A program made the position numbers and the translations under genes. This document shows positions 1 to 64,000 of a DNA stretch of 64,000 bases, piece by piece. The notes beneath the pieces were generated by a model. The model made no database searches, was not told the origin of the DNA, and worked only from the letters and a program-made list of their open reading frames with translations. The first letter of the stretch is position 1. Each line of letters begins with the position of its first letter. The stretch spans positions 2,170,001-2,234,000 of the forward strand of contig JAVTLE010000015.1 in NCBI GenBank assembly GCA_033439295.1, written 5' to 3'. The DNA comes from Deuterostichococcus epilithicus (lineage: Eukaryota; Chlorophyta; Trebouxiophyceae; Prasiolales; Stichococcaceae).

Positions 1-1871
1 TTGGGCCCGCCAAAGGCTATGAGCGCGTGCCGGAAGCCGGGCAGCTTGAGCTTTTTGGCCTCGCACACGCTGCCGCGCTCCGAGGTGCCCACCAGCAGGT
101 CGTAGCCGCCCTGCGGGTTTGCAGCATCGGTGCGCCGTCTAGCAAACTCGAGGCTTCGGTGGTCCAAGTGGTCCAAACCATGCAAGGCTGTGTGTCGAAA
201 ACGGACGTTTTGTTGCCTTCGGCAGCAAACTTCCATCGTGTTCTGCAAATCCTCTGCCCTTCCCTCCCCAGATGCTGTGTGTGCTAAGTTCCTGCGCCGC
301 TGTTTTAAAGCACTGATATGCGGCAGGCTGCTGGCAAACACCGTTCTGATGCAGACTGGGGGCCGTCGCCGCTGCAGATGCACACTGCTGACAAGCCTGT
401 GTTGCTGCGGCAGGGCCCTGACCCCGCGTCCCCTGATTGCACGCCGTCAGCCGCCTTCAATGTCGCCCAAACTGCGCTGCGTGCAAGGGAGCTGCAGCCG
501 CTTCCCAGCAACCTCACCTCGAAGGGGCACTCTGCCAGCGCGGCGGCCAGGCCGGACGCCAGCCGCGTGGTCGCGCCCCAGTACAGACCGGCGGCGGTGC
601 GCGGCTCGCTCGGCGGCCCCAGCCGCGCCGGCAGCACCTCGCCCTCGCCATCGGGCGCGGGCTCCGGCTGCGGCGCCTCCCCCATCGCCAGCGTCACCCG
701 CAGGCCCGGCCGCAGCGCCTCCGCCACGTGTGCCTTCTGCGATGGCGCAAGTGTCGAGCGTACCATACCGGAATGCACGAGAGATGCAAGTCGAATGGAA
801 GTCAATGAGCTGTCGCCCATGCCTGCTGGCCAAGTGCGCTGTCACCTGCATGCGCTGCATCGCTCCGTATTTGCCGTGTCCGCCGCAGAGCCCCTTAAGT
901 CAGAAGCCGTCAGCCGGCCTGGGCTGGTACTAGTGGGCTGCTGGACAAGCCTACTGCGTCACATGCCTGCAGAAGCGCCATGGAGTCGGACCTCAACTGG
1001 GTGCAGGGGCGAGATGCTTGCAGAGCAGGCAGCTCACCATGTCGTACAGGCCGACGTCGATGAGTGAGCCGGTAGCGGCGCTGCCATCGACGACGACGCC
1101 CTCCCTGTAGGGCCGCCATTCCATGGCGCGCATGTGGTGCGGCGCGTCCACGGGCGGCAGCAGCCCCGCCAGCCGCAGGTCCCGGTGGAAGGGCACCAGC
1201 GCCCTGCGGCCGGTTCAAAAAAATCATATAAACTTAAGATGCAGAGTTTCGGGGCATCAACACGGCACCTCAGGTGCAGGCAGGCTTTGCACGGAGGCGG
1301 TGCACGGGCTGCTGCGTGACGGCCGGTGGCAGCAGGCTTCGTGGACATTGGCGTGCGTTGTGTGTCCCATGACGCCTGTCACCGAAAAACCTCACTTGCG
1401 CAGGTACTGCGGGGTCTCCTGGTACTGCAGGATGCGCGCCAGGAAGGCGGCGCCCGCACTGACCGTGCCGTCGCCCGCCGGCTCCTCGTCGATCACCACC
1501 ACCTGCGTTCAGGCCGCTATGCAATGCGGTCATGCCGTGCCGCTGTCGGTTCTGTGCCTGGCCTCGCTGATGTGCCTTGAAGCAGTCAGCCCCTGATGCT
1601 GCGCCAGTGCACGCAGCGAAGTGTACCGGACCATACGGGCCAATCTCCTGAAGGGACCCCAGCAGCGAAACAGACACACGCGCATCATTCATGCCGCATC
1701 GGCAAGCGTTACACCATACTGACCTCGTCGACGTTGAATATGGCCGCCGCGCGGGCGATCTGGCCCGCCACGTACGTGGCGAACTCAGCGTTCTGGGTGT
1801 TGTCGATCACAGAGCCCGGCACCGCAATCGACACCGTCCACTGGCGGCCAGACGGCGCAGCCGCCCCGTTG
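1..1871 (-). CDS. SPOUT-family RNA methyltransferase, C9orf114/SPOUT1 type (partial, cut by window start)
   Basis: Five exons read on the minus strand with consistent splice phases: 1724-1871, 1396-1502, 1038-1203, 518-736 and 1-110. They give the family's conserved blocks in order: SIAVPGSVIDNTQ...YVAGQIARA, then FLARILQYQETPQYLRK, then PPVDAPHHMR...PYREGVVV, then YWGATTRLASGLAAALAECPFE, then YDLLVGTSERG and GFRHALIAFGG near the C-terminus. The family has a trefoil-knot SPOUT fold and uses S-adenosylmethionine; human SPOUT1 is linked to RNA modification and to the spindle. The final C-terminal residues lie before position 1. The N-terminal exon upstream of 1871 was not found, so the start is unresolved; it must lie before the COG7 start at 2477, making the two genes head-to-head. 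Family assignment is firm; the RNA substrate is not visible. Confidence 0.88.
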
Positions 1872-2476
1872 CTGCAGTGCAGAGGCATACAGTGTGGGAC
1901 TCTGGCTGTGGACTGAGAAGACGGAGCCCAAGACCAGCTGTCGCACTCTGCATCCGCCGATCTGAGGTGTTGCAGTCGTCAGCCTAGAGCGAGACGGCGC
2001 TGCACCATGCATGCAAATTTGCCTTGAGGAGAACTGGCATGCGCACCTGAAGGGCTGAGCTGTCATAGATACAAGAGTTTGTCGCCGCTGCGATAAAATG
2101 GAGATATTTGTCTGGTGGCCAGCGGAATCGTTTTGTGACGGACAGTCGTCCGGGATGGCCGAGGCGGTTTTTGGTCACTGCAGTGTGCGCGGTCAGCCAA
2201 TGCTTATTGACAGGCTTTGGAAAAGTTTCCTTTGTTTCTTGAATTCTTCTGGCGTGCGCCGCTGCTCTAGCTGAATTCCGACACAAGAGGCAGCAGGAAG
2301 CACTCGGCACGTGAGTGCAGTTGAATGTTCGGCTCGACGCTGCCTGGCGCCAGGCGCGGCTTGCGCAGTCAGGCAGTGTGACCTTCGCCTTTCTGAGCTG
2401 GTTTGCAGTTGCCACTGGTACATTTGCGCAACTTCGCATTTCGGAGATCAACGCTTGATCTGAGTGTCATGTGGCA

Positions 2477-5400
2477 ATGATGACAGACCTTTCACAGTTT
2501 GCAGCAGAGGGCTTCGAGCCGAAGGTGTGGATCAACGCAGCATGTTCCTCGGTTCCGGAGGGCGAGACGCTGGAGAGGTGCCATGTCGCGCACACAGCTG
2601 GCACCAGCTCCCCTGATGCGCAAAGCAGTCGCCCGCGTCGCAGGCTGGCATGAACGATACAATTGAGGCTCTATCACCGTCTGCTACTGCTCTCACCCTC
2701 TGCGGCAGGGCGCCGCCACTGTAGAGCGTGCACTCCCTGCACACCACACTCGCTCGCACAGCGCTCAACTGGGAAACCGCCGCGCAGGCACCTGGCGGGG
2801 CTGGAGATGCGACTGGCGCTGGCCGGCGAGGACGTGGAGGCCAGCCTGGCGGACGCCAGTGACAGGGCGCTGCGCCGCATTCCCGCCGCCGCCGCTGAGG
2901 TCACCGCCCTGCAGGTGCAACCACAACTTACTGGGACTGCACACAGCCCTGATCAGCGCGAATATTGTGCACAAGAACCATGGCGTTGACCCAGTGCAGC
3001 AAAAAACCCTGGAGTTCATGCTCGACGTGAGGTGCTGCATGCGCACATACCTCCAGTGTTCGTCCCCGTGTGCGGTCGCTTAAGCGGAACCTGGCCCCTG
3101 GCGCGATAGGAGGACGTGGGCGCGCTGCGGCGGGACATGGCGCGCCTGGTGCAGGACCTTGCGGTCCAAAAGGCGGAGGCGGCGGCCGGCACTGCCAGCC
3201 TGGCGGCGCTGGACCGCGTCAAGACGCGCATGGAGGCTGCCTGCAGCACGCTCAAGGTGGGCTCGCTGCGCCCACTTCACACTGCGCATTCGAAGTGCTT
3301 TGATACGAGGGCGTGTGGTGTGAGGCGGAACTTCGGAGGAAGGCGCTGGCAGCTCTCGATTGCCCGCAAGTGTGGCTGCGGTGGGCTTTGCTGCCGAGGC
3401 GCAGTCCGCCAGCTGCGACGCTGGGTCACCGGGTGTCCGCTGTATGCGCCCTGCAGCACGACTGCCTGAAGGGGTGTTCGCAGCCCAGCCACAGGTGTCC
3501 GGCCGACCAGCACACCAACGTCATTATCCGAACAGGAGGCGCCGGGGCTGTCGGAGTTGTTCCGCAACATGACAGGGGGATCTGCTGGGCGGCGACACGG
3601 CAATCGGCATTTGATGCAAAATGATCCCGTTGTTGCGACAGGAAGCGACGGAGCTGTCGGAGCTCTTCCGCCGCGTGGAGGGCGTCTTCGCCGGCGGCGA
3701 CGTAGCGGCCATTGCCGCGCTGCTGTCGCGCATGCGCGCCAGCCTCGCGCTCGTCGGCCATGTGCCCGAGTTCGCCGGCGGCCTGGAGCGACTGGAGGTC
3801 TGGCAGTTTTCATCCTACTCTTGTTGTCGTTCGAATCTGTATTGGTGTTCAGGCCGCGCCTCACAGCCGTGGCGTTGTTACCGTCTTTGGCACCACCTGG
3901 ACTGCACGGCTCGCCCCCGGCAGAGCCTGGCGGGACGCTTTGATGGCAAAACTGGCTGCGAGCTCTCAGTGTCCTGGTCAGCAGCCCGCCAGCAGCTCCG
4001 GCGTCTTTGTGAAGGACTGTTCTCTCTTGGGTTCAGCTCAGCGCCGGCGCTCCCTTCCTGCTCTACAGGCGCTGGAGGACCGGTTCCAGGGGCTGGTGGA
4101 GGGCAGCCTGGCGGCGGCGTTCGCCGGCCGCCAGGGCGACCGTGTCGCACAGCTGGCCGGCATGATGGCGGCTGTGGGGCGCGGCCCTGCGGTGCATAAG
4201 CTGTACACGGCTGCGCGGCTGCAGCCGCTGCAGGCGAGTTTGCTTCCTGCTTGTCTTTCCCAATCCTGCCACTGTCTGTAACCTCATCGTCTACTTCAGT
4301 TGTCAAACCCGACCCACTCAGCCGGGGCCCCGGCCCCCCTTCTTCGTGACCAGACAGCCCTGGCAGACGGCAGAGGCAGCAACCTCGCCAAGCATTGCCC
4401 TGCTCAGCCACGTCCTGCACCGGTCTCACATGCCGGGCAGCTGTGTGTTTCCCGCACGTTACTGGCTGTGCGGCAGCAAAGACGTGGTGCAATGATGCCG
4501 TACCTTCGCTTCCTTCGCTCCTGACGTGAGATGCGCCGCCCGCAGACGCACTGGGACGGTTTCGACCCAGCGGTGGCCGGCGGCTTCCCCGGCTGGCTGC
4601 CGGGCTTCTACGGGCAGGTGGAGGCCGCTGCGGAGGCGGAGTCCCGCTGGCTGGGCGGGGTGCTGCCGGAGCAGGCCGTGGCGCTGGTGACCGGGCTGCT
4701 GGCGGCCCTGGCCGCCCGTATCGACAAGCCCTTCCGCATGCGCCTCGCAGCAGCGCTGGCGCCCAGTGCGCACCGCCCAGCTGCCTGTTCCAACTGCGGC
4801 GTGACAATAGAATGCTGCATGGCGGCCGCGGTCCGCCGCCAAACACCACTGCACTCCTGCCACTCCCCTCCTGACAAGGCCCGGCTGTGCGACATGCTTG
4901 TTCACAGCTTGCCGCAACGTGCCTGCAAAGGGTAGGTTTTCGAGCCGCCACTGTGACAGCAGCCCCTGACACGCGCAGGCCCGGACCGGCCGGGCGCGCC
5001 GCTGGCGACGCTGGGTCAGCTGCACGCCTTGGCGGTGGCCACGGTGCGACGGGCGGCGGGCGCCATCGCCGGCGCGTCTCGCGAGCAGCTGCGCGCCTTT
5101 GCGGTCGCGCTCTACTCGCCCTTTGAGGCCCAGATCGCCAGGTGCTTGCCTCCTGCCTCCTGCTGCCTGTGGCGGGCACTGCATGCAGCTCGTGACGGCG
5201 GAAGCTTCGCGGGCCTGGGTCGTCAGAGCCGCACCCGCTGCTTGTGTGTCACGGACTCGAGACACTGGTTGCCGCCAACGACGCATGAGGACCAGCAAGG
5301 GATTTCTTTCTTGTGTCACGAGAAGTGTGCCAAGAGAGGACTCGCCCCGGAGCAGGTACGGCGACATGGAGGCGCGGCAGCTGACGGCAGAACTTGCGTT

Positions 5401-8400
5401 GGTGCCGCTGCCGGGCGCCGGCGGCGGACCTGCCGCAGAGCCCGCCGCAGCGCCCGACACGGAGGCGATGGTCGCGGGCCTGGGCGCCTCCACCGCGCCG
5501 GCCGTCGCGGCGGTGCAGGCCGCGGCGCACCGTGCGTCGGAGCTGACAGGCGCGCCAGCAAGCCGGTCCCTGCCGGTCGCCCCCCTGCTGCTGGTCTGCC
5601 CCGGCAGGGCGCCGCCCCTGTGCGCGCCCCCCCGCAGCCGCGATAGCGGCGCCCCCCGCCTGAAGCCTGACTGCGCGCACCGCACTCGCTGCGCCCGTCG
5701 ATGTGCGGTGTTACCCGGCCCCTGTTCAGCTGGCGCTGCCGGAGTTCGGGGTCTGGCCTGGAGATTTATCGCTGCATGGCGATCAGACATCAAACATCTT
5801 TGCGGCTGCTGCCACCCCGCAGGCGGTACCGGGCTGCAGGCGCTGCTGGCGGCTGCGGACACAGCGCTGTCGGACCATGTGGCACGGCAGGCCGCCTGCC
5901 TGGCGGCGCTGCGGGAGCGCGTGCTCGCTTCGGCGCAGCGACCCGAAACGTCTTCTGCTGTGCGGGAGTCGTCTGCACTTGAAGTGTTGCTGTCACATCT
6001 TCGTTGAGGGTGCCTAGCGGCGGGAGCCTCTGTCCAGGGGCCCCAGTCGTGGCACTGCGTTCCCCCTGCTGCACTGGAAGAGGCCCGCCTCTTTGCTCGA
6101 CTGCACGCGGCCCGGGGGCGCCGACGCTGGCTCGTCAGGTGGCACGCTGCGCCGCTCAGGGTCCAACCCTGAACCCGATGCCTGAGCCGAGTACCCCAGG
6201 GACTTCGCTCAGCGGCCCTGCTTGCTCCGCAGGGGTCGCCAGCCGGTGGGGGTGCGGGCGGCGGCGAGGGTGCGACGCCGCAGCTCAGTGAGGAGGGCAC
6301 TGCCGTGTTGCCGCTGCTGTCCGTCGCAGGTGGGGCGTCCCCACCCTCCTGCGGGTTGTTGTCGAGGTCAACATTCAAGGCCTGGCAGCAATGTTGGTCA
6401 GGTTTCGTGCATGTCCCACTCGCGCTCGTCAGCGCTGCATCACAAGCCAGGTTCTGGGCTGGCATCGTATCCAGCAGTGGCCTGTGACTTGTGTTCTAAT
6501 AAGTTTGCCCGCTTGCCGTCGACATGATGCCTCAGACGCCTTGCACGGGAGACGTGGCAGACCTTGGGTCGGTGCGTTTGTGCGCTGCTCACACACGGCG
6601 GCGGCGCTGCGCCCGCCGCCAATAACGTCCAAGTAAAGCTTCGACCTCCTCTGCTTCCCGCAGCCGGCGCTGCGAGGCAGGTGGGGCTGCTGGACGCGCG
6701 GCTGCGGGCGGCGGCGGCGGCGCTGCGCCCGGTGCTGGAGGCGGCGGCCGACCCGGGGCCTTCGGAACCGACGGACCCTGTGGCGCTGCGCTTGCAGGCC
6801 GACGACGTGAGTGTTTGAGTGTTCAGATTATACACAACTGGTGTTTGCCTGCTTTCCTGACCATGGGTTGCGCCCAGACTGCGGGCTGCGCCAGGGCGCG
6901 GGACGGCCGGCCGCAGCTGCCGTGTGTGGAGCGGTTCGTCAGGGTGGCCGAAGCGGTGAGGTGCAGCATGCCCACGCACGACGCAGCCGCCCTGGACCGT
7001 GCATGTGTGCCGACGGCTGCACAGCAGCTCGGGCAGGTCACTCGTTGTTGGACTTGCCCCCCTTTCTCAGGGCGCTGCCCTGCGGCGGGCGCGAGCCTTT
7101 GTGGAGGCCGCGGCGGACGCGCGCTTTGCGGCACTGCCGGGCTCGACGGCGCGCGCGGCGGCACTGCAGGCCGCCGCCAGCGCCCTCGTCTATGACGTCC
7201 TCATGGTCCGGGTGTGCTCTTTGTACACCGACTGTCCTGCGATTGAGCCGCTCACAGCGGCAACATCACCAGCAACATCAGCAGTGTAGTGGTCTCAGCT
7301 CGACGTCGCGAGACTGTGTGCGGGCAGAATGGCGCCGGCAGAGCTGCCTTCCATGCACCCTTTCCCTTGGCGCCGCACCGCCACCAACCCAGCAGCTCAA
7401 GGAGCAGCCCGCAGGCCTGAGTTCACAGCCGACGCAGGCCGCGCCCGCGCCCGCCACGCCTTCAGGGGCGGCCTTCCACCCACCCCGCCGTCGACGCTGT
7501 ACCGTCAAAACGATGCGCAGGTCAAGGAGCAGCTCGCAGGCTTGGCCTCGCAGCCGACCTGGGCGGCACCCGCCCCCGCCAACGCCTTCCAGCTTCCGGC
7601 CTTCTCCGCGTACCCAGGGCCCGCCGTCGCCGGCGCCGGCGAGTACCTCATGATGCTGCCGCAGCTGCTGGAGGGCGCTCTGGATGCCGCGGAGGGAGAT
7701 GAGGACGGCGGCCTCGACGGCGACTGGCTGGACAAGGTGCCTACCTTCAACCTGAGAACCGCCAACCTGACAGTTTCCAGCTGGAACAGTAGATGTGCAT
7801 TTTGAGCAGCTGGGGGGGTTGCTGGATGCCGCGGCACATGCACTTTCACGCACCGTGTCAAAATGCTTTCAAACTGTTGAGATCCTGGGTTTTCGAAACT
7901 TGAAACACCAGTCGGGCAGTACTGCGTGTCCTGAAGGACTACGAGCTCACACCGAAACAGCGCTGGGATCACTCACGGCGGTGGCCCCGGCACCCTGGAA
8001 GCCCTGGAAGTACCTGAACCCAGAAGTGGCGCATTTCCACGCCCAGGTGGCGGCGGGCGCGGCAGAGGAGTACCTAGGCCACCTGAACAGCATCGCATCG
8101 CTGTCGGCCGCTGGCGCGGGGCAGGCTGCAGCGGACGCAGAGTACTTTTGCAACGTGCTCTCGGCGCTGGGCGTGCAGCTGCCGCCGGCGCTCGGCACCT
8201 GGCAGGTGCGGGTACTGAACAGGAGCTGGGCTGGCACTTGATTGCGATTGCTGGACCTCGCTTCGTGGCTCCGCTGGCGCTTGGCAAACCCTTTCGGTAC
8301 ATGCGAACTTTCGAGTCAGTGGAGATGGAGTTGATGAACGTCAATGGTTCTCGGTCAGGAGTTTTGTGTTGTCCGCAGCTGACGGTGGGGCTGCCGCCAG

Positions 8401-8806: not shown

Positions 8807-9873
8807 TCATCCGTTCAGCAGCTGCGCCGGCAATAAGGCGCAGATATTCGACATGCGCCCCGCCATGGCGACAAGTCCCATGGGCGAGGCACCGCCGGCG
8901 CCGCTGTCGCTGTGCGTGGCGCCAGGGACGGTGGCGGACGCCAGCGGCTTGCTGGCTTGACTGTCAGATCGGCTGGCTCCGGAACCTTCCCGACTGCCGC
9001 CGCCGCTGCTGGCGGCACAGTGGACTGGCGCTGCTGACATGGCGCTGTGCCCAGGGACGGCGCCCGTCCCGCAGTGCAGCGCGACCGTCGCCCCGACACA
9101 GGCCGCCAGGCTGCGGCTGTCCTCCTCGAAGCAGTCCAGCCAGGCGGCAGACTCGTCAAAAGCGGCGCGCGCGGCCTGCACGTGTTCCCGGTGCCACTCC
9201 GCGCCGCCCATGCCCACCTCGGCCGCCAGGGTGTCATACCGTGCCACCACATCCGTGCCCTGTAGCAGCAGCAGGCAGCTGCTCTCGATGCGATCCTGCC
9301 AGGACGTGGGCGCACAGGAGGGCGAGCCTGATTTCCGAGGTTGTCGGTGCATCAGCATGCCATTACATCCCCAGCTGGGCAGTGCCCACAGCTGGCAACC
9401 GCCATGCCGTCGCAAGCCGCCCAGGCGGCGGTGCCAGAGCCGCTGCACATGCAGTGGGAACGCGCCTCGCGGGTGCATCGCCGCAGGGTGGACACTGCAA
9501 ACCCCTCCACGCGCGGCAGCTGCGCGGCGGTGGCGCCCAGGCAGGCCAGGTGGCGCCTCGCTGCCGCCCTTGGCCCCTCGGCGCCGTACACCTGCGCCGC
9601 GGCCTCCCTGCGGCCAAGGGGCAATGAGATATTAGTATACCGCTTGTCTGCAGCAGGCCAGGTGGCACCGCGCTGCCGTCCTGAGGCCATCAGCGCCATA
9701 GACCTGCGACGCCGCCTCCCAAGGGAGCAGTTGAATCATCTACTCTTGTATTTTGCAGGCGGGCCAACAGCTCTGATGGTGTGGACCAGAACCTGTGTCG
9801 GAGCTGACGTCTCGTGAGGTGGCTCTCAGTGAGCAGCCCGTACATCGGCAGAGACATTGCACTGCCAATGGGC

Positions 9874-9935
<62 letters not shown>

Positions 9936-10191
9936 GATCCACGCTGCTGGCAGCCTCCCAGAGGAAGCAGCAGCAACAGCGACGACCCATGCCGCAGGAG
10001 CACCTCCGCGAGTTCAGGGCGCACCGCAGGCAGCGACAGACGGTGGCGACGCGCGCGACGGCGGCGATGTGGTGCATCCAGTGCTCGTGCGGCCCATGTA
10101 TACCGCACACAATGCGCGTCAGCAGCTCGCCAGGCAGGTCCTGTGGCGAGAAGCGGAGCAAGGTGTGGTCAGCGATGTGAAGGTTCTTCAT
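8807..10191 (-). CDS. F-box-like protein, substrate unknown
   Basis: Three phase-consistent exons (10004-10191, 9496-9607, 8807-9295) give 262 aa. Residues about 17-55 (QDLPGELLTRIV...HHIAAVARVATVCRCLRCAL) resemble an F-box, the SKP1-binding motif of SCF ubiquitin ligases. The rest is not recognised: YGAEGPRAAARRHLACLGA, then RIESSCLLLLQGTDVVARYDTLAAEVG, then a Ser/Gly/Ala-rich tail. Intron 1 (9608-10003) contains a run of 20 CAG triplets (CTG in the transcript) and a decayed copy of exon 2. Exon borders are inferred from phase and AG/GT signals; the F-box call rests on a short motif. It lies tail-to-tail with COG7. Confidence 0.5.
9655..9722 (-). repeat. Echo of F-box gene exon 2
   Basis: This stretch reads EAASQVYGADGLRTAARCHLA on the minus strand, nearly the same as EAAAQVYGAEGPRAAARRHLA of exon 2 (9541-9607). 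It sits upstream in the same intron, same orientation. It could be an alternative exon or a decayed copy. Confidence 0.75.
9875..9934 (+). repeat. (CAG)20 microsatellite
   Basis: Twenty uninterrupted CAG triplets on the plus strand (CTG on the strand of the F-box gene). In the model chosen they lie in intron 1, not in coding sequence. Confidence 0.97.
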
Positions 10192-11341
10192 AAGCACGGT
10201 GCACGTCGGTGCTTGCTGTGCGCTGCAGACACACATGCAGGTGTGGCGCAAGCATCTAGCAGCTGGATCTGGGCTGCCGACGCACCAGCAAGTGGACTGT
10301 GGCCTGATGGCGGTGTGCGACGTCCTCTTCTGTGCACCGCCGCTTTGCTGTTGCCTGGAAGGGTGCCATCTGTCTGAAACCTGCCCTGCAGCAGGGATTC
10401 TCCATCATCGCCGAGCCGAGCATTTGGTGGCCATGTACCACATAGGACGGCGCGGGAGTGCAGTCAGGCGCGGCACCTGAACACAGGCATGTGGTCCTGA
10501 GGACGCTCAGCGCAGGAACTGCAGATGCACCTTGGAATTTTCCGGAGGAGTCTGGCTGCTCAAGCGGCTGTAGTCGCGGCAGGCAGCCCTGAGACCTTGT
10601 GTTGTGTCCAATCTACGTGGCAGCAGTCTCGCAGCGCCTGTGGGCAAGCGTACTGCCTGGAGCGCAGTGACACGGCAGAATTCGATTCACTCAACGGTGT
10701 TGAATGAAGCAGCAGCTGCAAATGCTCGCCATCCGCGCTGTAATCGAGGAGACGGTGATTGTGCAGCCAAACACGCTGCAGGGTGGCCTTTTTGAGCCTC
10801 CACCCCTCTTTGACTTTCGAGGGTGCGCGGCAGCCGGAGGTGCGTGGAGCGGCTGCTTATGCGGACTCAGTGAGTCTGTCCATAATTTACATTCTGGAGA
10901 TTTGCGGCGCCAGGTACGTGCGTGATCGGCGTCAGCGGCAGTGGGTCGTCGTCCGTCACTATCAAACCTTAGCAGCCGAGCGCACTACCGTGAGACGTTC
11001 TGTGAGGTGCGCGCTGATCGTCTGATGCATGACGGTAGGTTCAAGAGCTCATGGGCACCGCCTTTTCAAGCTGGTCTCCGGATGCGAGATGTCGGAGACC
11101 AGTCGCGCCTTGCACCAGATTCGCGCGCCCAAGCATCACGCACATGTCATGAATATGAATGTTTGAATAGCATGCATGAAGTCTTGACGAAATCTCAGAT
11201 ATGTCGCGGCCGAGACATTCAAGTTTTGCCGCAGAGAACAATCTGCATGCTCACACTTTTCCGTGCGCACCGGCATGCCAGCAGACCGAACGGCTGAGCT
11301 GATGCATCGCTGAAGCATTATAATACCCTCGAAGATTGAAG
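10192..11341. other. Intergenic region between divergent genes
   Basis: Divergent 5' region between the F-box gene (-) and the secreted-protein gene (+). I see only short open frames without family resemblance and no RNA gene. Confidence 0.5.
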
Positions 11342-14108
11342 ATGAATACTTTTGGCGTTGGGCTTGTGTTGCTGGTGGCGTTGTGCTGCAGTCCGGCCTC
11401 AGCTGCTAGCCGGGTGCGCCCGACGAGTCTCGATGTGAAGTGCAGCCGACTGGTCGGCTTGAATCCAAAGGTCATGCCCGATTCGCAATGCACAATCATC
11501 ACTGTCAACATTTCGACATCGGTTCATACTCGCTGCGAAGCATGCCGACGCATCAGACCATAGGTCACCACCATGAGGACACACAAGTGCAGCAGCATGC
11601 CAGTGAACACTACAAGACTGAGGTGCTTAATCACTGGCAGGGCTGTGACTGAGTTGCCATGTAATCGTCTGTGCAGAGAGGCACCTGGCAGCCGACCCGC
11701 CGCTGTCGGCTACGGTCGAGATCAAGGATGTGCCGAAGATCGGACTCGCGCCGTTCTTCGTCGCGTCCGGCCCTCTGATGAACATGGTGGTGTCGTCCGA
11801 AGGGGAGAGCCTTGGCACTGGCGGCGAAGCGGCCGTGCGCGGCGGAGCTCTAGGCGGCAGCAGCGCTGCTCCTGCGCTACTTGGTAGCCACAACAATGTA
11901 TTCCCACCATCGCTGACACCGCCGGCGGGTCTGCCGCTAATCGCGCCTCCACCAGTGGCGACTGTTGCCCCCGTGTCCAAGCCAACTGCGGCTCCCACCA
12001 AAATGCTGACTGCTATGCCAACTGCTGCCCCAACGACCGCGCCTACAACAGCGCCGACGGCTGCCCCCATGCCGCCTCCGCCTAGCAAGGCGGGCGGGAT
12101 TGAGAGTGCACGGCCGCTCCCCCGCCGCCGTTGCCGTCGCCACCATCCCCGCCTCCGTCCCGCCGTCCTCCCCTCCTCCTTCCCCTCCACCTTCACCGCC
12201 GTCGTCTCCGCCGCCACCCCCACCGGCAGCAGTGAGCTCGCCAGATCGTTTCTGCAACCCAAGCGGCCACATTGACTCGCAAGACCACCACGCAGCTCAA
12301 CTCAGCCCTCTGATGGCATCAAAATAATCATCCCTGACAGACAACACTCGTGCATGTCCACCTGTTGCAGGCCACCATCATGGGCATTGCGTGGCTTGAC
12401 CACCGGAATGGCAGGGTTAACACAGATGGCAACGACTCAACACTGTCCGGCGTGTAGGTGAAAGCTTCTTGTCATGGCGACATCCTCTTGTTGGTTCTTG
12501 CCTTGCACGACTGCCCCAGGCCCACTGCTGTGCGCTCAGCTTGGGAAGGCAGCGACCCTTGCGGCAATCCGCACTGACAAAAGAGTGCTGCGGCCTGCAG
12601 GTGGACATCGTGGCCGTCGCTGCCGACAACACCACCCAAGTCACCGCCTCCCTGCAGACCGAATCGAGGGGTGCGCAGCTTGCACCACCTCGAGCTTATG
12701 GCGCGGTGCAGCACAAAGCCTATGGCGTGGTCTTTGATGCTGGTTTTCGTGCCTTTGTCAGTGTCGTGGCGCGTCCGTCCTGGCGAGCAGTCCACAGCCA
12801 TGATGGGGCGGCAGCAGCACGACGGCAGGCAAACCAGGTCGAATGACTCCCTGCCCTTCTCTGTGCAGGCATGTACTCGTTCAACTTGGTGCCATATGGC
12901 ACGAAGTACTTCCTGCAGACGACGCCGCTGCCGGGCACACAGCTGATGCTGAGGTTTCACTTCAGACGCAACAACGCCACTGCTTCCGCAGTCACATCGG
13001 TCTTCGTGCCCACAGCTGGGTTGAGTATGGACGTGCGGCTTCTGCTGCAGGATACCGAGGTGAGTTCCTCAAGCGCAGCCTCATGTGACAGCAGCACGTT
13101 CTGATGCGTTCTGAGCAAGCAATGGTGGCGCACTCTTCATCATCAGTGCGAGTGATATCTGGAATGTGGGTTCAGCGTAAACCCTGTCTATTGCCCAGCT
13201 GATGTGTCGGCGTCCTGTGTGGCGCACAGGCTCCTGCAATCACCTACGACACCTTGTCGCGACTGCCGACGGCTGGAGTGCCAAAGTTGCAGGCGGTGGC
13301 CCTTACCCGGTCCAGGCGGCTTCGACAACCCCTGGATCCAGGTAGGACACCTCCGTCCCAGGTGCGTATGGTGGCATCACGCAATGCGATACGACTGCTG
13401 CAATGGACAATACTGGTCCGGGTGTTCCCTGAAACGTGCCTACCCGATGCTGCTGGCAGGTTTCAAGCAGTGGCGCAATTCAAGTTTCTGATTGCATTTG
13501 GACCGGGCTGGGACGCAGGGAATGTAGCCCTGGTGAACACCACCACTTTCACCATCGCATTAGCGCCGCTGTTGCACCACTTCAAGTGCGACCTCGCCGT
13601 CTTTGACGTTGTTGCTACCGCGAAAGACAACCTGGGTACTATCACCACGCTGGGCGTCACAAGCGGCGCCATGCCACCTTTCCGTGTCATGTGAGTCGGG
13701 AAGCAGTACTACAGCTTCTGCCACCAGTAGGAGGCCTTTCCAGTCAGCTGACCAGGGTCCGGCATGTCTGAAGGTTCCCTTCAGCCTGCATGCCTTCATA
13801 TGCGTGCTTCAAGCCAGCGCGGTCCTGAGAAAAAACCTGTCGTTGATTCGTTTGCCACAGTTCCTATGCACTGGTGCAGGAGTGCGAGCAGCCTGGCCGC
13901 TGGCAACAACCGGCTGGCTCTCCGCCTGGCGCTCCTGCTGGCCGCTGCTGGCGACCCGCCTTTCGTAGTGACGTTCGGCGCGGAGGACCCGTCCGGCCGA
14001 CATGCCGTGGTTGAGCTGATCTTCAAGACGCCACCGCAGTCACTGCCGCCGTCCGCTGCTGTGCCGCCGCCAGGCGCAGTCGTCCTGATGCCGCCACCTG
14101 GCGCTGTA
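11342..14108 (+). CDS. Secreted Pro/Ser-rich extracellular-matrix-like protein
   Basis: The ATG at 11342 opens a clear signal peptide (MNTFGVGLVLLVALCCSPASA). Downstream exons, borders approximate, include 11660-12100 (ends in a Thr/Ala/Pro linker with repeated TAAPTTAPTTAP), about 12130-12290 (SPPPSPPPSPPSSPPPPPP, a hydroxyproline-rich hinge as in volvocine pherophorins), 12602-12660 (VDIVAVAADNTTQVTASL), 12870-13061 (YSFNLVPYGTKYFLQ..), 13229-13340, 13491-13694 (AQFKFLIAFGPGWDAGNVALVNTTTF), and 13862-14108, ending in PPPGAVVLMPPPGAV. The pattern of signal peptide, Pro/Ser hinge and beta-rich globular domains suggests a cell-wall or matrix glycoprotein. No pherophorin signature was found, so the family is not named. 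Exon borders around the Pro-rich hinge require a frame change and are uncertain. Confidence 0.55.
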
Positions 14109-14213
14109 TGAGGAGAAAACTGCGAGCGATGCTGCTGCCACCTCCACCGGGTGCTGCTGTGCCGCCGCCAGGCGCGGCCATCCTGATGCTGCCACCTGGC
14201 GGTGTATGAGGAG
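14057..14213 (+). repeat. Tandem duplication of the 3' end of the secreted-protein gene
   Basis: A segment of about 59 bp with the last codons (PPPGAVVLMPPPGAV plus stop, 14057-14115) recurs at 14155-14213 with few changes, about 98 bp later. The second copy lies just past the stop codon. Confidence 0.85.
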
Positions 14214-14228
14214 TATACCCTCTCCTCT

Positions 14229-52306: not shown

Positions 52307-55247
52307 ATGCACGTGGTCTTTGTCGCGCTCCTGGCTGTAGCTGCTGCCGCGCACGTCAGGTCAGCCGATTCCGTACTTCAGTCGCACAGTCAGCTGGCGC
52401 AAGCGCGCGTACGAATAGAACCAGGTGGCTGCGTGGACGTGCTCCTATCTGATCGATGGGAAGGTCATCATCTAGCCAGCCTGCAGCTCGCCGCGGGTTC
52501 GGCATGCGCAGCGACACAGTTCAGGTGGGGCAATAACTCGAGCCCGCCGCACGCTGGAGACATGACGCGCCCTGACGGATCTGCCACCAGGGAACGTGTG
52601 CTGCTTGGCAAGCTCACATAGTTTTCTGATCCAGTCGATACAATCTATGGTCTGGTCGGGGCGGCTGCCAAACACCGTGCGTGGACAGCATCCGCTCGAC
52701 AATGGTTGTATGCTTGTGGCCCTATGCCCAAGAACTGCATCGCAGCGAAATGTCAAGACCTACCCAGAACAAACGCCCCCGATGGGCTCAAGGAAATCGT
52801 GCGATGCTATCACTGCGCTCGGCGTTACCGCGCCACTGGTCGACACACCACAGCGCACCCTCAGAGATGGCTCACGCATACCACCTGTGCGCAGGCTATT
52901 TCATTCGGTGCGCCTCAGGTATCCAGACGGCGCCAGCGGCTGCCGGCTGCACCCGCAGCCGCTGTCCTGGCCGCCGGGTGTGGCGGACCAGGAGGCAGGG
53001 CTGGGCTGGCAAGGTCCAAAGGCAGCCGATCAGCTGAGCGTGCGGCCGCATCAGCAGCCTGACGCGCAGCATGCGCTTTTAGGCGGCCAGGACCTCGTTA
53101 TTCGCGTGCGCAGCCGCTGCCGCGCAGCTGCCGAGGTGCGCATCCAAGCGCAGCCCGTGGCGGCGCGGCGGCGTGGCGCGGCTGCGGCACTTCAGCACAT
53201 GCAGGAGCAGCGGCTGCAGCAGCAGCAGGAGGAGCAGCTGTCACTTCCGCTGCCGCTGCAGCTGCGCGAGGCGGGCGTCAGCGCGGCGCGGCGGCAGCTG
53301 CGGCAGGTGTCGGGGGCGCCACGAGATTCTGGCCCAGAGGTGTGCTGCTGCCCGGCGGGCGCGGACAGCAACGTCACCACGGTGCTGACGGACCGGCGGT
53401 CCATCGACTCTGGCGACCGGTGCTGCTGCGGCGCCTACAAGTGCGCTGCCGCCCCTATCTTGGCGGCAGCAGCGATGGCAGTTGCCTGAGCGAGCAATGC
53501 TTCCCTGGTCCTTCTTTCTGTCCAGCAGGCCGCGCTGCGAAGTGATGCACCAGTTTGTTCAGCTTGCCAACGCTGGCTACTGATAGTGTTGAAAGCTTCG
53601 AGAAATGGCAGCGACGCGTTGGCTCACTTGCCTGCCCATGCAAAGCATCTGACCATGGCTCGCCTGTCGTGCAGCAAGTGCTGCGCGCAGCCGTCCGGCA
53701 AAAACAACCAGCTGAGCAGCATTGGCGGCGGCAGCGGCGGCGGCGTGTGCGACGGCAGCAAGTGCATCATCATACTGGCGGTGCTCATCGTGATGGCGGT
53801 CGTCATCATCTCCTGCATCGGCTGCGGCATCTTCCTCTGCTGCAGGCATGGCCCCCTCTCAGGCTGCTTGCGCCACACAGCTCCCGACCAGCCAGCTGCA
53901 GGGCTTTGAGCGAATTTGATGTTGAGCTGATCGTCGCATGTCTTTGCCCTCCGCCTCCCCTGATTCCCTTGTAGGCCGGTGCTCTTCGTCCGACAGTGCT
54001 CTGAGCTGCCAACTGGGCACTGCGCAGACGCAGCCGGAGACAAAACCAGCCGGTGCTGCCGCTGCGGGGCCGGCGAGCGCGCCGCGCCCGTCCCGACCGC
54101 GGTGCGCACCTCCCAGCAGCTGGTTCCTCCCGGCGCTGTGCTGCAGCACGCGCAAGCTGATGTGCCTGCCGAAGCTGGGGTCTGAGGCAATCTGCACACC
54201 AGCTGCTGCGGCTGCCAGCAGCATCAGATGCAGCATCACGGTGATGTGTCAAATTAGGAGCAGGCCCAGACACCAGGTCTGCGCCTGCTGCCAACAGAGG
54301 CTTCCTGCAAGACCTCAGCTGGAGCTCTGCACGACCCTGCTCCTGGACACTGCTCCCTAAATACCGTCCCATGACCAGAATTTCCTCAGGCCCTGCACCC
54401 ACATGTCACATCACAGGTGACCCTGTCAAGGCAGCGGAGGACATGCGCACGGTCGTGAAAGCGCTGCCAGAGGTGGACTTTTTGCCGGAGCGCGATTGCA
54501 CCTGCCCCATCTGCATGGACGCCGTCGCCGCTGCGCCCGGCGCCTGGCAGGTGCGTGAGCGAGACGGCTGCTGCTGCTGCTGGACTGAAGAGAAGTTCCA
54601 ACATTGCAGCATGCGACTAGGACTGATCGTCTGAGGCCTGACGCTTGCTTGTGTGTGTGCTGCTTGGTAATCACGCATGGCGCCGTGATGGTTGGGGCAG
54701 TCAAAATGCGCTAACAGGCTTGCCTGGCCCGTGCAACACGCGGGACCAAATATTGAGCGGCGACTCGCCCTCAACCTGGACGGGCTCCCGAACAGATCGG
54801 CTGACCCCTAGGCAGCGTGCGTCTGCACAGGTGCTTCCGTGCAGTCATGGCATCTGCACACGCTGCTTCGAGACACTGGTGGCCCGCGAGGCGCGCCTCA
54901 CCACCTGCCCCCTGTGCCGCGAGCGCATCCTCAAGCCCAGCCCCGAGGAGGTCGCCGCCGCCGCTGCCGAGGCGGCAGCGGCAGCGGCGACGGAAGACGC
55001 CGGCCCGCCCACGGCAACGCCGACGGCGGCGATGGTGGCGGCGAGCCGCCCGCTGCCCCTCGAGGCGGCGCGGCGATCTGGCGCGACGGACTCTGCGCGT
55101 TCCTTTAGGGGCCGCACCCCCGCGGGCGGCAGCAACAGCGGCGGTGGCGGTGGCGGCCTGCCCATGTTCGGCGGTCTGACGCTGGCAGACTACGGCATCC
55201 TCCCTGCAAGGATAGGGGGCGCCGGCGCTGGGGAGTCGCGTGCGTGA
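52307..55247 (+). CDS. Transmembrane RING-finger protein (putative E3 ubiquitin ligase)
   Basis: Start ATG 52307 with signal peptide (MHVVFVALLAVAAAAHVRS). Exons 52307-52524, 52919 to about 53440, about 53675-53845, about 53975-54179, about 54434-54550, 54831-55247. The ectodomain is Cys- and Gln-rich and unrecognised (YPDGASGCRLHPQPLSWPPG; CCCPAGADSNVTTVLTD). Exon 3 has a strong membrane segment (CIIILAVLIVMAVVIISCIG) flanked by Cys. The last two exons form a C3HC4 RING: CTCPICMDAV, then LPCSHGICTRCFETL, then CPLCRERILKP, with an Ala/Gly-rich tail. A secretory-pathway E3 with cytosolic RING is the natural reading. Joining ectodomain, membrane and RING into one gene is inferred from order and phase; two genes (52307-53489 and the RING part) are the alternative. 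One intron (after 53845) uses a GC donor. Confidence 0.6.
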
Positions 55248-55251
55248 GCAA

Positions 55252-55282
55252 TGAGATCCCGGGCAGCTCAAGCGGGATCTCA
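55252..55282 (+). other. Hairpin just after the RING-gene stop codon
   Basis: TGAGATCCCG (55252-55261) and CGGGATCTCA (55273-55282) form a perfect 10-bp stem with an 11-nt loop, 5 nt after the stop. Confidence 0.7.
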
Positions 55283-58387: not shown

Positions 58388-60996
58388 TCAGGCTATGCGC
58401 GGCCTCTTGAGCGATGGCACCTCTGGCACAATGCTATCCCTGCCGCCGCGTGCTGGCCCAATACCCCCCGCCTTGGGCTGCGCCGCCGGTGCTGAGGATG
58501 GCACCGCGCTTGTCACCAGGGTCGGGTCCCGCACTGACACCACCGGGTCGTCGAATATGGAGCTGCAGGCAAGACAGCACTGGTGTCGGCATCCTCGACT
58601 GACATGCACACGCAAAGCCTGTCGGACTCCCATAGTTGGACATCTGCACAAGGCACTGAAGCTGCGGCCTGAAGTTGGGGCAGCGCCATTATCTTCGGCA
58701 ATTCGAAGCAGGAACGGCAGGCCCTGCGGCCCGCATGACACACAGTGCACGGCATGGGTGCACGACCAGGAGCTGAGGCAGGTGCGAGCACAGTGTATAA
58801 ATGAAGGCCTCACCCGTCGGCCGGCTGCGAGGCGCCACCGCCGCCGCCAAACCAGTCGCCGGCGGCGTCGTCGGGCAAGAAGCCGAGATCGGGCACCTCC
58901 AGGAAGCGGCTCCAGTCGTCCAAGTCGCCCAGCCCTGCATCGCCCCATGCCGCATCCACGTCCTGTGTGTGTGATGACGATGTTCAGACCCTTCCAGGTT
59001 GGACACCTCCAGGAGGCGGTTCCAGTCGTCCAGGTCCTCGAGCCCCGCGCTACACTGCGCCCAGGTGCCATGGGCGTGTTGCAGATCATCATCTGAATGA
59101 GGCACAACCGGCAGACCGAGGCCTCAGAAGTTAGCTGCCTGTTAGTCGCTGAACCTACCATTAGTCACCATTCCTCTCGCACATTTCTTCGCCCTCCTGC
59201 TGCTGGGCCGTGACGGCCATGGACGTCCGGCATGTCCTGAACCCGGACAAGACAAGACTGGGGTGACCTGCACCTTGGCGCTGTAGTTGGGCGGTAGCGA
59301 CGGCATGCCCAGCAGGTCTGCTGCCAGCGTGACACTGGTGCTCCGCTCAGCGGGTCCGGCAGAGGCACCACCGGCTTCCCTGCTGGCGCCTGCACCGCTG
59401 CCGCCGCTGCTGAATGCGCCGCTGCCGATGCCGCAGCCCAAACCTGCCTGGGCGCCGGCTGCATCCGGCTGGCTCGCCTGAGGACGGCACACACGCAGGG
59501 CGGTTTGAGGTGCTTGCTTCCTGCCATCTTCAGCACCCCAACTTAAAACCGACCAGCAGTCGCGGCATGCACCAGATTTCAAAACTTGAAAGTCCCGAAT
59601 GTAGGAAGCCGCGCCTGGAGCGGCACGGGCGCGTCGGCGGAGGGCGCTCCCATCAGCATCGCCCCCGTCGGCAGGCGCGGCATGTTCAGCAGCTCGCCGC
59701 TGCTGCTGGAAGGCTGTATCCTCGGCATGGCTGAGGCTCCGCTGCGCTGCATGTTGGTCGTCGTCTCCGCTGCATATACATGGGTCCAGGGGTTTGAGAC
59801 AGCTTTCAAAGGGTAGCGGTGACCGTGATGCTCCTGTCATGTGAGTCAAGGCCAGCAAAGGCAAGAAGCTGCTGAGACGCAAGAGGCTTTCTTGTCAGAT
59901 ACCTCTCCGAAGCCTGCCAGCCTGACATGCTGCAACTCACCGCGCCCGCCAGGGGCTTACCTGCCGAGCTGGCGCCTGAGCTTGAAGGCTCCGGCAGGCC
60001 ATGCAGCCCCGCCGCAACGTTTGACAGGATGTACCGGTGGTGCGTCTTGGTGAACTCGTTGGCAGTGTGGATCATCAGGTCGCAGCGCCGGCAGATAAGG
60101 GCGCGGTCCTCTGAGCAAAACATGACTGCTGGGTGCTCCTGCGCCAGCAGCGGCAGCAAGAGTTTCACGGGTGGCTCGCCCACGGCGATCTGCTCTGCCA
60201 TCTGTGCTGCAGGCCGGCGGCGGCCGTGAAGCCGCAAGCAGCTGGCGCCCAGCGCCGGAAAGATGCACAGACACGCGAGTTGCCGCTGCAACCGGCAACA
60301 TGAAGCTGTTGCAGCGCCGCCACGACTCTTGAGAGGGCGCATGGTCAACTAAGTGGTACATAGCTTAGCTTCAAGCTGCCAGGTCTGAGTTGCATCACAG
60401 CTGTACCTGGCAGATGTCGCACTGGGTAGGCTCGTTCAGCGGCGTCAGCGCGACGCGCTCGTGCTTTTGCCCCGCCTGCTTGGCGGCGTGCATCCTGCAA
60501 GACACACCCCGAGAGGTATATGAAGACTAGAAAACGGATGCAGGCGCACTCCGCGTTGAGAGCTGATCGGTTTCAAAGGTCGCGGTTGGCCAGGTTCCGG
60601 TCAGCAGCCAGGCCTTGCGATCCAACGGCATGAGCCACCGCTACATGGGACGAACATCTCGAGTCTATCGACAGAACATGAGGTTGCGACGCTGATACGC
60701 ACAGCGCATGCGGGAGCCACCCGACCAGGTACAGGCGGAAGCAATGCCGCGACTCGCTGCTGTTAAGCATGCGTCCTGGCCTCTGGCTGGCGCTCAGCTT
60801 TGCAGGTTGGTGACCACTAGACTGACTGCAAAGGCAGCTGCGATTGCGGATGATCTGATCGACCCTTCAACAAACGGGCACACCGACGACAAAGGCCAGC
60901 TCACCTGCTGTCGCAGGCGCGGCACAGCGACGCCTTGTCCGCGAAACAGTGCAACGTGGCGGGCTCGATGTGACATGCATCGCAGGTAAAGCCCAT
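58388..60996 (-). CDS. Double B-box zinc-finger transcriptional regulator (BBX family)
   Basis: Seven exons join in phase to 346 aa: 60905-60996, 60407-60494, 59961-60138, 59615-59769, 59274-59477, 58814-58962, 58388-58562. The protein begins MGFTCDACHIEPATLHCFAD with B-box 1 (ending MHAAKQAGQKHERV). B-box 2 follows (CDICQEHPAVMFCSEDRALI and CRRCDLMIHTANEFTKTHHR). Two adjacent N-terminal B-boxes are typical of plant BBX proteins that act in light and circadian signalling. No CCT domain follows; the C-terminus is acidic (LGDLDDWSRFLEVPDLGFLP) and ends with VPEVPSLKRPRIA, whose KRPR could be a nuclear signal. Intron 4 is GC-AG (CAG|GCGCGG...CAG|GCGAGC). The intron before exon 6 has an echo of that exon. 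Confidence 0.92.
59001..59072 (-). repeat. Echo of BBX exon 6
   Basis: Minus-strand AWAQCSAGLEDLDDWNRLLEV here against AWGDAGLGDLDDWSRFLEV in exon 6 (58895-58956). About 105 bp upstream in the same intron; the DNA is near-identical over GGCACCTCCAGGA-GCGG-TCCAGTCGTCCA. Confidence 0.85.
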
Positions 60997-61592: not shown

Positions 61593-64000
61593 TCACCTTA
61601 AAATCGCTGCCACATGCTGCCATGCACAGACGCTGCAAAATGTGCAACACAGTGCACGATGCACCATGCCACACAATGCTCCAGATCTGAGACACGCAAA
61701 ATGCTGCTGCGCACCCTTGATGATCTCGTCCACTCTGAGCACCATCTCCGCCGCCTCTGTGGCCGAAAGCAGCACCGCCTGCTTGACCTGTGGCGGCATT
61801 GTTGATGAAACTTTAGCGCAGGCTGCAGGGCAATATGTTCTGCTGCAAGTTTCCACTACGCGCCATCAGGTCGTCCAGGGCCACCGTGCAGATGGTGGGC
61901 GTGCACGACCTCGCAGCGGCCCAACCCCCTCGGCGCCCTCCCTCCGCGCCTTCAAGGAGACTCCGCTGCCACATGTCCAGATGTCCATACTGGACCCCTG
62001 TCCAGCCCAGGACAACTCACGGGTTTCGAGATTCGACACCCACCTTGAAAGCCTCGAAGATGCCGAGCTGGGACATGTCACCCATGCGGCCGGCGAGCAC
62101 GTCGACGCCGGCGCGGCTGTCGCCGCCCTCTGCGTGCGCCGCCCGCAGCTGCGACACCAGCTCCGCTGAGTCCAGGCCTGCAGGCAATATGCTCAGGATC
62201 AATCAAGGAGGCAACAAGGCAATAATCTTGCAGGTGTTGCAACCACGCATGTCAGTGCATGCTATTGAGCAGGAAACCCCTGGTTACCTCCTTACAGAGC
62301 TCACTGCTGCCGCAATCCTGCACATTGGCGCGCCAGACAGCAAGGCAGGTGGTGCCGCCTGCGCCAGCCGTGCAGTGGCCTCCCTTGGCATACGGCACGT
62401 GGTAGCGGCCTGCTGCTTGCTGCGGCCGGGAACGGGCTTCATGCCTTCGCCAGGCGTGAGCCAGGGACGGAGTGCAACCTGGTTACAACATTGCTCAGGC
62501 ACAGCAGCCACGTGCCTGCATTGTCGGAGATGATTGTGGGGATGGCGCGCAGCGCGCGAGCGAAGGCCTCCATCGCCAGGCTACGCTTGCCGGGCGTCCG
62601 CGCCGCCAGCTCGTCCACCACCTGCAGGCATGCGGCGGGCTCAGGGTTTCGGCTGCCTACTCAAGGGCAGGGGTCCGAGTTCCCGCCACCCGAGCACGAT
62701 AGGCATTGGCGCAGGCTGCGCCCTGCGCACACGCTGGCTCTTGCTGCCAGCCACAGCCCTGTGTAATCAACTGCAAAAATCAATGATCAACAGGACAGAC
62801 GCCTGCACATGCCAACTCGGCAGGGAGTGCCATGGCCCCTTTGGCCGCTGCGTGTGTGCCACTGTCTTTGAGGCGCTGCCACCAGGAACGGCTTGTGAAC
62901 CAGCCGCCACACAGTGATGAGTGGCAGCGGGAAGGGACGGCGCGCGCCTTAGCCATCTGCATCTCAGGCCAGCCGCCGCCGTACAGCACGCGCGAGTCGG
63001 CGGTCGCGGCACTCAGCACGCACAGCGCGTCATGCAGTGACCGCTCTGCCTCGTCCAGCACGTGCGAGCCTGCGGGCACATCGGCATTCACCAAGGTTGG
63101 CCTTGGCTGCAGGGTTCGGGTACCAGCTTCCCGTTCTGTGCCAGCTCCCTGCAGCCGAGCGTGCTGAGAGGCAGGGCGCGGCGCGGCGATGCCACAACAT
63201 TTGCCGACGGCTGCTGCAGAACACAATGCGGTGCAGCTTGGCAGGTGGGCTCCGATGCATGGCAGCAGTGCAGCGCGACGGTGGCCAGGTCTGCACAAGA
63301 CTGCATGCGCTGGCGGCAGTGCCGGTCAGCGTTTCTCATGGGGTTGCATGGCGAAGTCACGCACTGGCGCCGCGCAGCACGATGGTGCAGGCCTCCGCCT
63401 TGGCGACGCCGGAGAAGTGGATGAGGCGGTCCTCGCCGATCATGATCTCCTCGATCAGCTTGCAGTGGCCCAGCTTGGTCGCCTCTGGGTGGTCGAAGGT
63501 GCTCGCGATGTCACCGCCTGCAGGGTTTATGACTCCAGCATGATGATCACAATCGGCGCGACAACATGGTCTCGATCGGCTTGCAGTGCGCCAGTGCGGC
63601 CACCTCCAGGAGGTCACAGGTGCTGGCGATGACGCCGCCTGCGGGGTGAGCACATTGGAAGGAACAGCCGTATGTCCGTAGCGTGTCTCAATCAGCTTGC
63701 AGTGCCCGAGCTCGGTCGCCTTCAGGTGGTCAAATGTGCCGGCGATACCATCGCTTACGGCAGCACATTGGCATGAGCACTTTGGGCGCAACAGCGGGAC
63801 TACACAAGTGAGATGGCGGTGTTGAGGCGCATCATTGCCGGGTGCTGCTGGCGAGCAGACGCGCACCGGTAACTAGGGCTGGTCTGCCACAGTGCAGAGA
63901 AACATGTGAGGAAAGTGCCAGAATGTCGAAAGTACAGACTGGTGCAAAACCAAGCAGGCGCGCACCGGTGACCAGGGCGAGGCGCTCGATGCCGTCAAAG
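61593..64000 (-). CDS. CCT2: T-complex protein 1 subunit beta, C-terminal part (cut by window end)
   Basis: Exons 63966-64000 (partial), 63365-63517, 62948-63069, 62516-62621, 62044-62177, 61715-61787 and a short last exon ending 61593 join in phase. Blocks match CCT-beta in order: [149 protein letters not shown]. It is one of eight subunits of the cytosolic chaperonin that folds actin and tubulin. The N-terminal half (ATP site) lies beyond the window. The last exon (giving IIKAILR) is weakly supported. The introns after exons 3 and 4 in this list use GC donors. Confidence 0.93.
63570..63760 (-). repeat. Two echoes of the CCT2 exon 63365-63517
   Basis: Copies at 63570-63646 and 63687-63760 align with 63449-63523 along their length, sharing ATC-GCTTGCAGTG and GGTCA/GGTCG ... 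GCGAT. On the minus strand they read [22 protein letters not shown] and [22 protein letters not shown] against [22 protein letters not shown] in the exon. Confidence 0.9.

Follow-up and report, generated by a model that had tools for sequence, protein, structure and literature searches.

What do introns of the green alga Deuterostichococcus epilithicus record when they contain a worn copy of the exon that adjoins them? The question is posed by a window of 64,000 nucleotides (bases 2,170,001–2,234,000 of contig 13, in a genome of 46.8 Mb and 21 contigs), where introns of unrelated genes hold diverged direct copies of the adjacent exon edge, which we call echoes. A preliminary description of the window took these as traces of intron birth, by tandem duplication of coding segments that contain AGGT. 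The analysis reported here points to growth: introns already present would be lengthened by short tandem duplications that straddle one of their splice sites, rather than being born in this way.

In total, 294 kb of sequence (about 61% GC) were read: the window plus 23 stretches of 10 kb from elsewhere in the genome. Genes were modelled with a small ab initio gene finder, a hidden Markov model trained on the sequence itself without transcript support. Its donor is CAG|GTGCGC, with about 10% GC donors, and its acceptor is TGCAG|G; branch-site-like words (e.g. CTGAC and CTCAC) are enriched 15–50 bp upstream of the acceptor. The gene finder predicts 65 genes, with 559 introns whose median length is 223 bp. 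For 434 of these introns, which are at least 90 bp long and have flanking exons of at least 25 bp, an echo test could be carried out; the remaining 125 were too short or had flanks that were too short. In this test, the last 45 bases of the exon and the first 10 bases of the intron were aligned to the remainder of the intron, the opposite end was treated in the same way, and a score of at least 16 was counted as an echo.

The test returned 45 echoes in 41 of the 434 introns, distributed over 23 genes, compared with approximately 1.2 expected by chance. Upstream edges account for 16 echoes and downstream edges for 29, where random introns matched for length would give 0.5 and 0.7. A reverse-complement control at the exon edges gave a single match (reverse-complement echoes, 1 and 0), and in a previous run, which covered 383 introns, the other introns of the same gene behaved about the same as random pairs. 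One echo, at L011, sits in a repeat array; it is counted in the totals of 45 and 41 and in the echo-test counts that add up to these, and is left out of the other tests on the echoes, for which the totals are 44 echoes, 40 introns and 22 genes. Echoes occur in 13 of the 90 usable introns of the window, belonging to 7 of the 12 genes that have usable introns, and in 28 of the 344 usable introns of the other 23 stretches. A few introns contain more than one, such as an intron at 41592–42180 in a ketoacyl synthase (KAS) gene and the intron of a CCT-like gene at the right end of the window. The latter is a further echo gene, found by hand; it stands outside the statistics because the automatic model took what we read as part of the middle copy for an exon. 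The echoes are thus real, as the preliminary description held, but its statement that introns throughout the window are built from them is too strong for a feature of 14% of the usable window introns. Similarly, the "at least ten" genes of that description come down to seven by the test, or eight with the CCT-like gene. Three direct repeats that had been candidates, at 7392–7456, 55004–55047 and 58886–58938, have both copies largely exonic in our models; their lags of 125, 115 and 110 bp are not multiples of 3, and they may be additional echoes that were wrongly modelled.

Clumping by gene is not significant (p=0.18), and no correlation with codon bias was seen. Echoes of 3' edges outnumber those of 5' edges by 29 to 16 in the echo test and by 26 to 17 (p=0.22) in the repeat clusters described below, which does not amount to a firm asymmetry.

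A scan that makes no use of gene models, based on ungapped diagonals at lags of 30–600 bp with a score of at least 18, led to the same result. It found 49 direct segments in the window, where three dinucleotide-shuffled versions gave 1, 0 and 1 and lags of 5000–5570 bp gave 7, confirming that local direct repeats exceed chance. With a complexity filter, the window retained 39 direct segments at near lags, compared with 2 at lags of 3000–3570 bp and 1 inverted segment. In twenty of the other stretches, 205 near-lag segments were found versus 5 at far lags; 144 of the 205 come from four loci (L011, 68; L015, 30; L014, 26; L021, 20), which are dense local repeat arrays that are coding in part. 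The lags in the scan peak at 80–160 bp. Segments were grouped into 120 clusters, of which 3 arrays and 49 clusters with lags outside 80–199 bp were set aside. Those at lags of 80–199 bp consist of 43 exon–noncoding pairs, 19 that are exonic in both copies, 5 within introns, and 1 that is intergenic or mixed. The scan also picked up a coding array with a period of 69 bp at 25387–25624, an ordinary protein repeat that looks leucine-rich-repeat-like by eye. Two other repetitive features of the window are a direct repeat of 85 nt (14036–14218; 82% identity, lag 98) at a predicted gene end, with one copy mostly coding and the other past the predicted stop, and a stretch of lower GC content at 51461–51954, where GGTAACC and GGTTGGACC abound in short tandem repeats.

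The echoes are strongly linked to intron length. The median length of echo-bearing introns is 431.5 bp, whereas that of the 343 introns giving no sign of an echo (echo score below 12) is 221 bp (p=1.1e-17). No echo was found in the 87 introns of 90–180 bp, and the fraction of introns with an echo is 1/159 at 180–260 bp, 6/98 at 260–350 bp, 23/55 at 350–500 bp, 10/34 at 500–2000 bp and 0/1 above 2000 bp, chance accounting for no more than 0.3 echoes in any length class up to 2000 bp. Put differently, echoes are present in 1 of 246 introns shorter than 260 bp and in 33 of 89 introns of 350–2000 bp.

The copies are local and in the same orientation as the exon edge. For 42 of the 44 echoes the lag lies between 85 and 194 bp, with a median of 122 bp; the other two have lags of 261 and 393 bp and were left out of the splice-dinucleotide, positional-identity and anchored gapped tests (n=42). 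The lags are spread evenly over the three reading frames (14, 17 and 13 for remainders of 0, 1 and 2). The identity of the echo segments ranges from 0.67 to 0.97, which, together with the variety of genes involved, bears out the earlier proposal that splice-site-bearing segments have been duplicated in tandem in unrelated genes and are seen at many stages of decay; this holds beyond the window as well as in it. At exactly the homologous position, 13 of 26 acceptor echoes and 9 of 16 donor echoes retain the splice dinucleotide, compared with a mean squared identity of about 0.67, showing that the copied unit crossed the splice site at least in those echoes. Echoes had been described as usually including the AG, which is an overstatement, given 13 of 26 acceptor echoes with an exact position and 17 of 26 if a shift of 1 nt is allowed; 12 of the 26 score above zero on the acceptor matrix. 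They had also been described as carrying stops, and here we disagree, having found an in-frame stop inside the aligned exon part in only 2 of 43 echoes. In the youngest case, L013, the whole unit of 85 bp can be aligned (86 nt at 97% identity, 30 exonic and 56 intronic). The KAS echo at a lag of 94 bp is similar, with 87 aligned nucleotides (29 exonic and 58 intronic), and L009, at a lag of 101 bp, is another full-unit case. A full or nearly full unit is also seen in a 153-bp repeat located in an intron interior (see below); elsewhere, it is mostly the exon part alone that aligns.

Were these introns born by the duplications whose remains they contain? In the AGGT model, the first copy supplies the donor and the second copy the acceptor, and the period of the repeat therefore equals the length of the intron. 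We searched for the corresponding signature, namely an intron start resembling the downstream exon and an intron end resembling the upstream exon with a period equal to intron length, and found 5 cases versus 6.2 expected at a score of at least 8, 3 versus 1.2 at 10 or more, 1 versus 0.3 at 11 or more, and none at 12 or more. This is not clearly above chance, even if the three introns in the second class are birth-like. The lag is within 5 bp of the intron length in 1 of 45 echoes, and this is the L011 case that was dropped. If birth had been followed by expansion through later duplications, the internal copy of an exon edge would be expected to lead on into the edge of the exon at the opposite end of the intron; such a match was detected for the flank of 1 of 44 echoes (p<0.05), and the same result leaves copies derived from mRNA unsupported. 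It also counts against birth that echoes reside in the longest introns and are nearly absent below 260 bp. To be sure, the splice dinucleotide is kept in roughly one echo out of two and tandem copies occur in some introns, which speaks for birth, and the mechanism is described as established elsewhere (PMC4974935, PMC3443670). Tandem genomic duplication is one of seven proposed routes of intron gain in the second of these, a review (PMC3443670). For the introns studied here, we nevertheless consider an origin by duplication of an AGGT-bearing coding segment, with later enlargement, to be quite improbable.

Repeats with this position, orientation and enrichment, linked to intron length and free of birth or dispersed-element signatures in the tests run, are probably best explained by tandem duplications that straddled a splice site of an existing intron, the spare copy decaying within the lengthened intron. 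Short head-to-tail tandem duplications with a unit of about 85–195 bp would recur in the genome. Whenever the unit straddled a splice site of a pre-existing intron, two copies of that site would result, and the spliceosome would stay with the copy next to the body of the exon, i.e. the downstream acceptor or the upstream donor. As the exon-proximal copy stays in use, the protein would be unchanged and the other copy would fall inside the intron. The spare would lengthen the intron by one unit and then decay, and repeated events could give rise to introns of 350–600 bp with one or more echoes. This scheme has the intron preceding the duplication, the copies presumably arising by a break-repair type of tandem duplication, the spares evolving neutrally, and exon-proximal sites being preferred in a manner that may resemble exon definition.

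Several observations sit uneasily with this simple scheme. Exon–noncoding events outnumber intron-interior events by 43 to 5 at lags of 80–199 bp, whereas neutral, uniformly placed duplications would yield a ratio of 1.8:1 (p=7e-5). That expectation is a maximum, since it rests on a maximal count of placements across splice sites. The similarity also fades too quickly on the intron side. Ungapped similarity reaches 20 nt or more on that side of the splice site in 1 of 44 echoes, compared with 21–50% in neutral simulations, depending on the indel rate; a strict gapped alignment gave an intron-side extension in 4 of 44, a first local-alignment test was positive in 5 of 44 (p<0.05), and positional identity on the intron side is near that of the control. 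An anchored gapped test fared better, with intron-side homology at p<0.05 in 9 of 42 echoes and z>2 in 24% of echoes versus 1.2% of 252 wrong-offset controls, but the controls of this test were soft, as the wrong-offset ones had no AG/GT anchor and, in the comparison with AG/GT-anchored controls, the best of five shifts was granted to the real sites alone. The size of the mismatch is uncertain because the simulations assume uniform ages and indel rates set by us. Furthermore, removal of one unit per echo leaves the echo-bearing introns at a median of 290.5 bp, still longer than 221 bp (p=0.0004). One added unit thus does not fully explain their length, and several events per intron or a bias towards longer introns would be needed. 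Finally, mismatches at the three codon positions (0.18, 0.18 and 0.25) show an excess at the third (p=0.006; 43 echoes), perhaps owing to silent change in the exon copy, an effect that is here mixed with any constraint on the echo.

The excess at exon edges invites a different account, in which a process specific to exon edges, either a mutation hotspot or selection, copies the edge with few intronic bases, or in which the intronic part is quickly erased by competition between splice sites. Apart from the 43 events against 5, this account would fit the ending of similarity near the splice site, the concentration of exon–noncoding clusters at lags of 85–194 bp (43 of 52, two being shorter) when 12 of 24 listed noncoding pairs have lags below 85 bp, and the echo of the intron at 9608–10024, which by eye lacks its acceptor. 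However, L013, the KAS echo at lag 94 and L009 clearly include an intron part, the anchored gapped test recovers intron-side homology in roughly one fifth to one quarter of echoes, the simulations that create the discrepancy rest on indel rates and age ranges of our own choosing, and spliced RNA as a template is unsupported. We therefore regard an edge-specific process as unlikely, if still a serious competitor. Selection against a competing twin site is a plausible cause of the weak intron-side similarity, which we offer as a lead and not as a result. Combining it with straddling duplication leads to a bolder proposal: that such duplication is a specific route by which introns of this alga grow, and a dominant one, with exon edges favoured over interiors, and that twin-site competition strips the spare of its intronic half, leaving exon-bounded fossils that date each step of growth. 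This we put forward tentatively, as a possibility we rather doubt.

Could the echoes be exons in their own right? Working alternative or mutually exclusive exons would account for the positive acceptor scores of nearly half of the acceptor echoes, the small number of in-frame stops and the third-position excess. Yet the excess is small, with positions 1 and 2 changing almost as often as position 3, unlike the strong one expected from two coding copies. The lags show no preference for multiples of 3, and the KAS homologues have one copy. Coding alternative exons are thus disfavoured, and very improbable in our estimation. It is less probable still that the echoes reflect chance similarity or faulty gene models. 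The models do come from an ab initio method without transcripts, and those of the CCT and KAS genes each include a wrong piece (about 29 spurious residues in KAS, as judged from the alignment of homologues), but the model-free scan gives the same excess, the controls (random pairs, same gene, reverse complement) yield almost nothing at high scores, and Pfam recognises the KAS, GH47, methyltransferase, diphthamide and CCT domains. The least credible source of the echoes is dispersed elements, introners included, in favour of which no evidence was found. When searched against all 46.8 Mb, with a procedure that scores the best candidates only and skips very common words, five echo-bearing introns matched themselves and the adjacent exon edge alone, making introners unlikely for these five. 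The intron with the 153-bp interior repeat matched only itself, and spacers and flanks within the 294-kb sample hit their own locus, apart from three matches of 25–27 bp.

The exon junctions of the KAS gene, on the plus strand, are confirmed by an alignment with five homologues that is unbroken at the echo-bearing junctions; the Pfam ketoacyl-synt domain is covered from 2 to 252 of 252. Among the 120 homologues listed for the KAS protein, the closest by identity are an unnamed protein (75%) and a transcript-derived protein (69%), and the closest named ones are from green algae, e.g. Elliptochloris (67%) and Chlorella vulgaris (65%). The 3' edge of the KAS I/II exon at 41449–41591 (predicted by the gene finder and supported by both the domain and the homologues) is echoed three times in the following intron of 589 bp (41592–42180), at 41657–41743 (lag 94, 83% identity), 41729–41781 (lag 183, 92%) and 41895–41949 (lag 337). 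The same intron has a 3' edge echo at 42077–42116 (lag 110), and its matches in the genome are to itself and local sequence only. Four more introns of this gene contain echoes: 40346–40842 (3' edge, the exon start at 40840–40898 being echoed at 40646–40704, lag 194), 40981–41448 (5' edge, 40951–40984 echoed, lag 116), 42372–42860 (3' edge, 42710–42734, lag 143, CCGCAG|GCGT kept) and 43102–43590 (3' edge, 43483–43511, lag 111). The CCT-like gene on the minus strand (Pfam Cpn60_TCP1) has three copies of the acceptor together with 68 nt of exon start at 63450–63754, the real one at 63450–63517 and echoes at 63571–63638 and 63687–63754 (lags 121 and 116). Every copy begins at or beside the acceptor, and by eye the intron ends preceding the two spare copies resemble each other.

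Pfam domains were found in eight of the nine predicted proteins submitted, two of the nine being partial: ketoacyl synthase, CCT chaperonin (with a B-box), RNA methyltransferase, diphthamide synthesis, GH47, TPP enzyme, nucleotide-sugar transferase and glycosyltransferase-90 (in fragments). On the minus strand, the GH47 gene, whose domain is unbroken over the whole Pfam profile (4–455 of 455), has a 3' edge echo in the intron at 34281–34606 (exon copies 34206–34255 and 34263–34285, lags 123 and 124), a 5' edge echo at 35099–35138 in the intron at 34801–35253 (lag 152), and a weak 3' edge echo in the intron at 37141–37447 (lag 160, score 16). The same gene contains the intron-interior tandem duplication mentioned above (33578–33860), whose 153-bp unit is young (93% identical); here an event of this type does not involve a splice site. 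The diphthamide-synthesis gene (plus strand) has a 3' edge echo at 29427–29470 in the intron at 29027–29551 (lag 111, GCCGCAG|GTAC kept). Further 3' edge echoes on the plus strand are located at 3532–3565 in the intron at 3257–3641 (lag 106) and at 47750–47786 in the intron at 47508–47842 (lag 85, CCACAG|GCA kept). Two more are on the minus strand, in the introns at 23205–23574 (exon copy 23168–23196, lag 123) and 9608–10024. In the latter, the exon start at 9541–9608 is echoed at 9653–9720 (lag 112, 82% identity), GCCGCAG is by eye missing from the acceptor of the echo, and a genome search returned the intron itself and the local exon only. A perfect (GCA)20 run lies at 9874–9934 inside this modelled intron. 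The small gene at 8964–10369 gave no match to a Pfam domain.

Intron lengthening is usually ascribed to transposons or slippage. Among the matches listed in the open-access literature, we recognised no description of long introns arising through exon-edge echoes. More than one third of the long introns that we read (33 of 89 at 350–2000 bp) keep a readable record of a single type of mutation at a single type of site. Since selection maintains the exon copy, an echo would be the fossil of a tolerated splice-site duplication, its decay readable against a fixed reference. Two questions become testable: whether exon-proximal splice sites are the ones chosen in this alga, and whether short tandem duplications have a preference for exon edges. 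A more general lesson is that exon-like repeats inside introns are not by themselves evidence of intron birth.

Introner elements shape the introns of green algae and other protists, and introns have been shaped in a green alga here as well, but no dispersed copies were found for the six introns searched genome-wide, five of which have exon-edge echoes. Where whole exons are duplicated in tandem and spliced alternatively, an exon edge is likewise found twice, side by side; the echoes differ in that the edge alone is copied, the lags show no bias towards multiples of 3, and third positions, though changed slightly more often, do not concentrate the changes. With regard to how the copies arise, the echoes resemble the fill-in duplications that involve CST/Pol alpha-primase in being local, direct and head-to-tail. 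According to PMC8355091, small tandem duplications form in mouse cells by fill-in of complementary 3' overhangs followed by end-joining, and tandem duplications are the commonest form of insertions below 100 bp in the human genome. The mouse events followed induced breaks with 43-bp overhangs, unlike the units in our alga, which are mostly 85–195 bp and concentrated at exon edges (PMC8355091). A close parallel is intron gain by tandem duplication, as in vertebrate ATP2A1 and potato RdRp, where a segment with splice signals is likewise duplicated within a gene and the protein can stay unchanged. There, the outcome was a new intron; here, the birth signature is at chance level and a pre-existing intron would have been lengthened. 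In the potato case, a duplication across an intron–exon boundary created a new intron with a cryptic donor (PMC4974935), while in D. epilithicus the spare edge appears to have been swallowed by the same intron.

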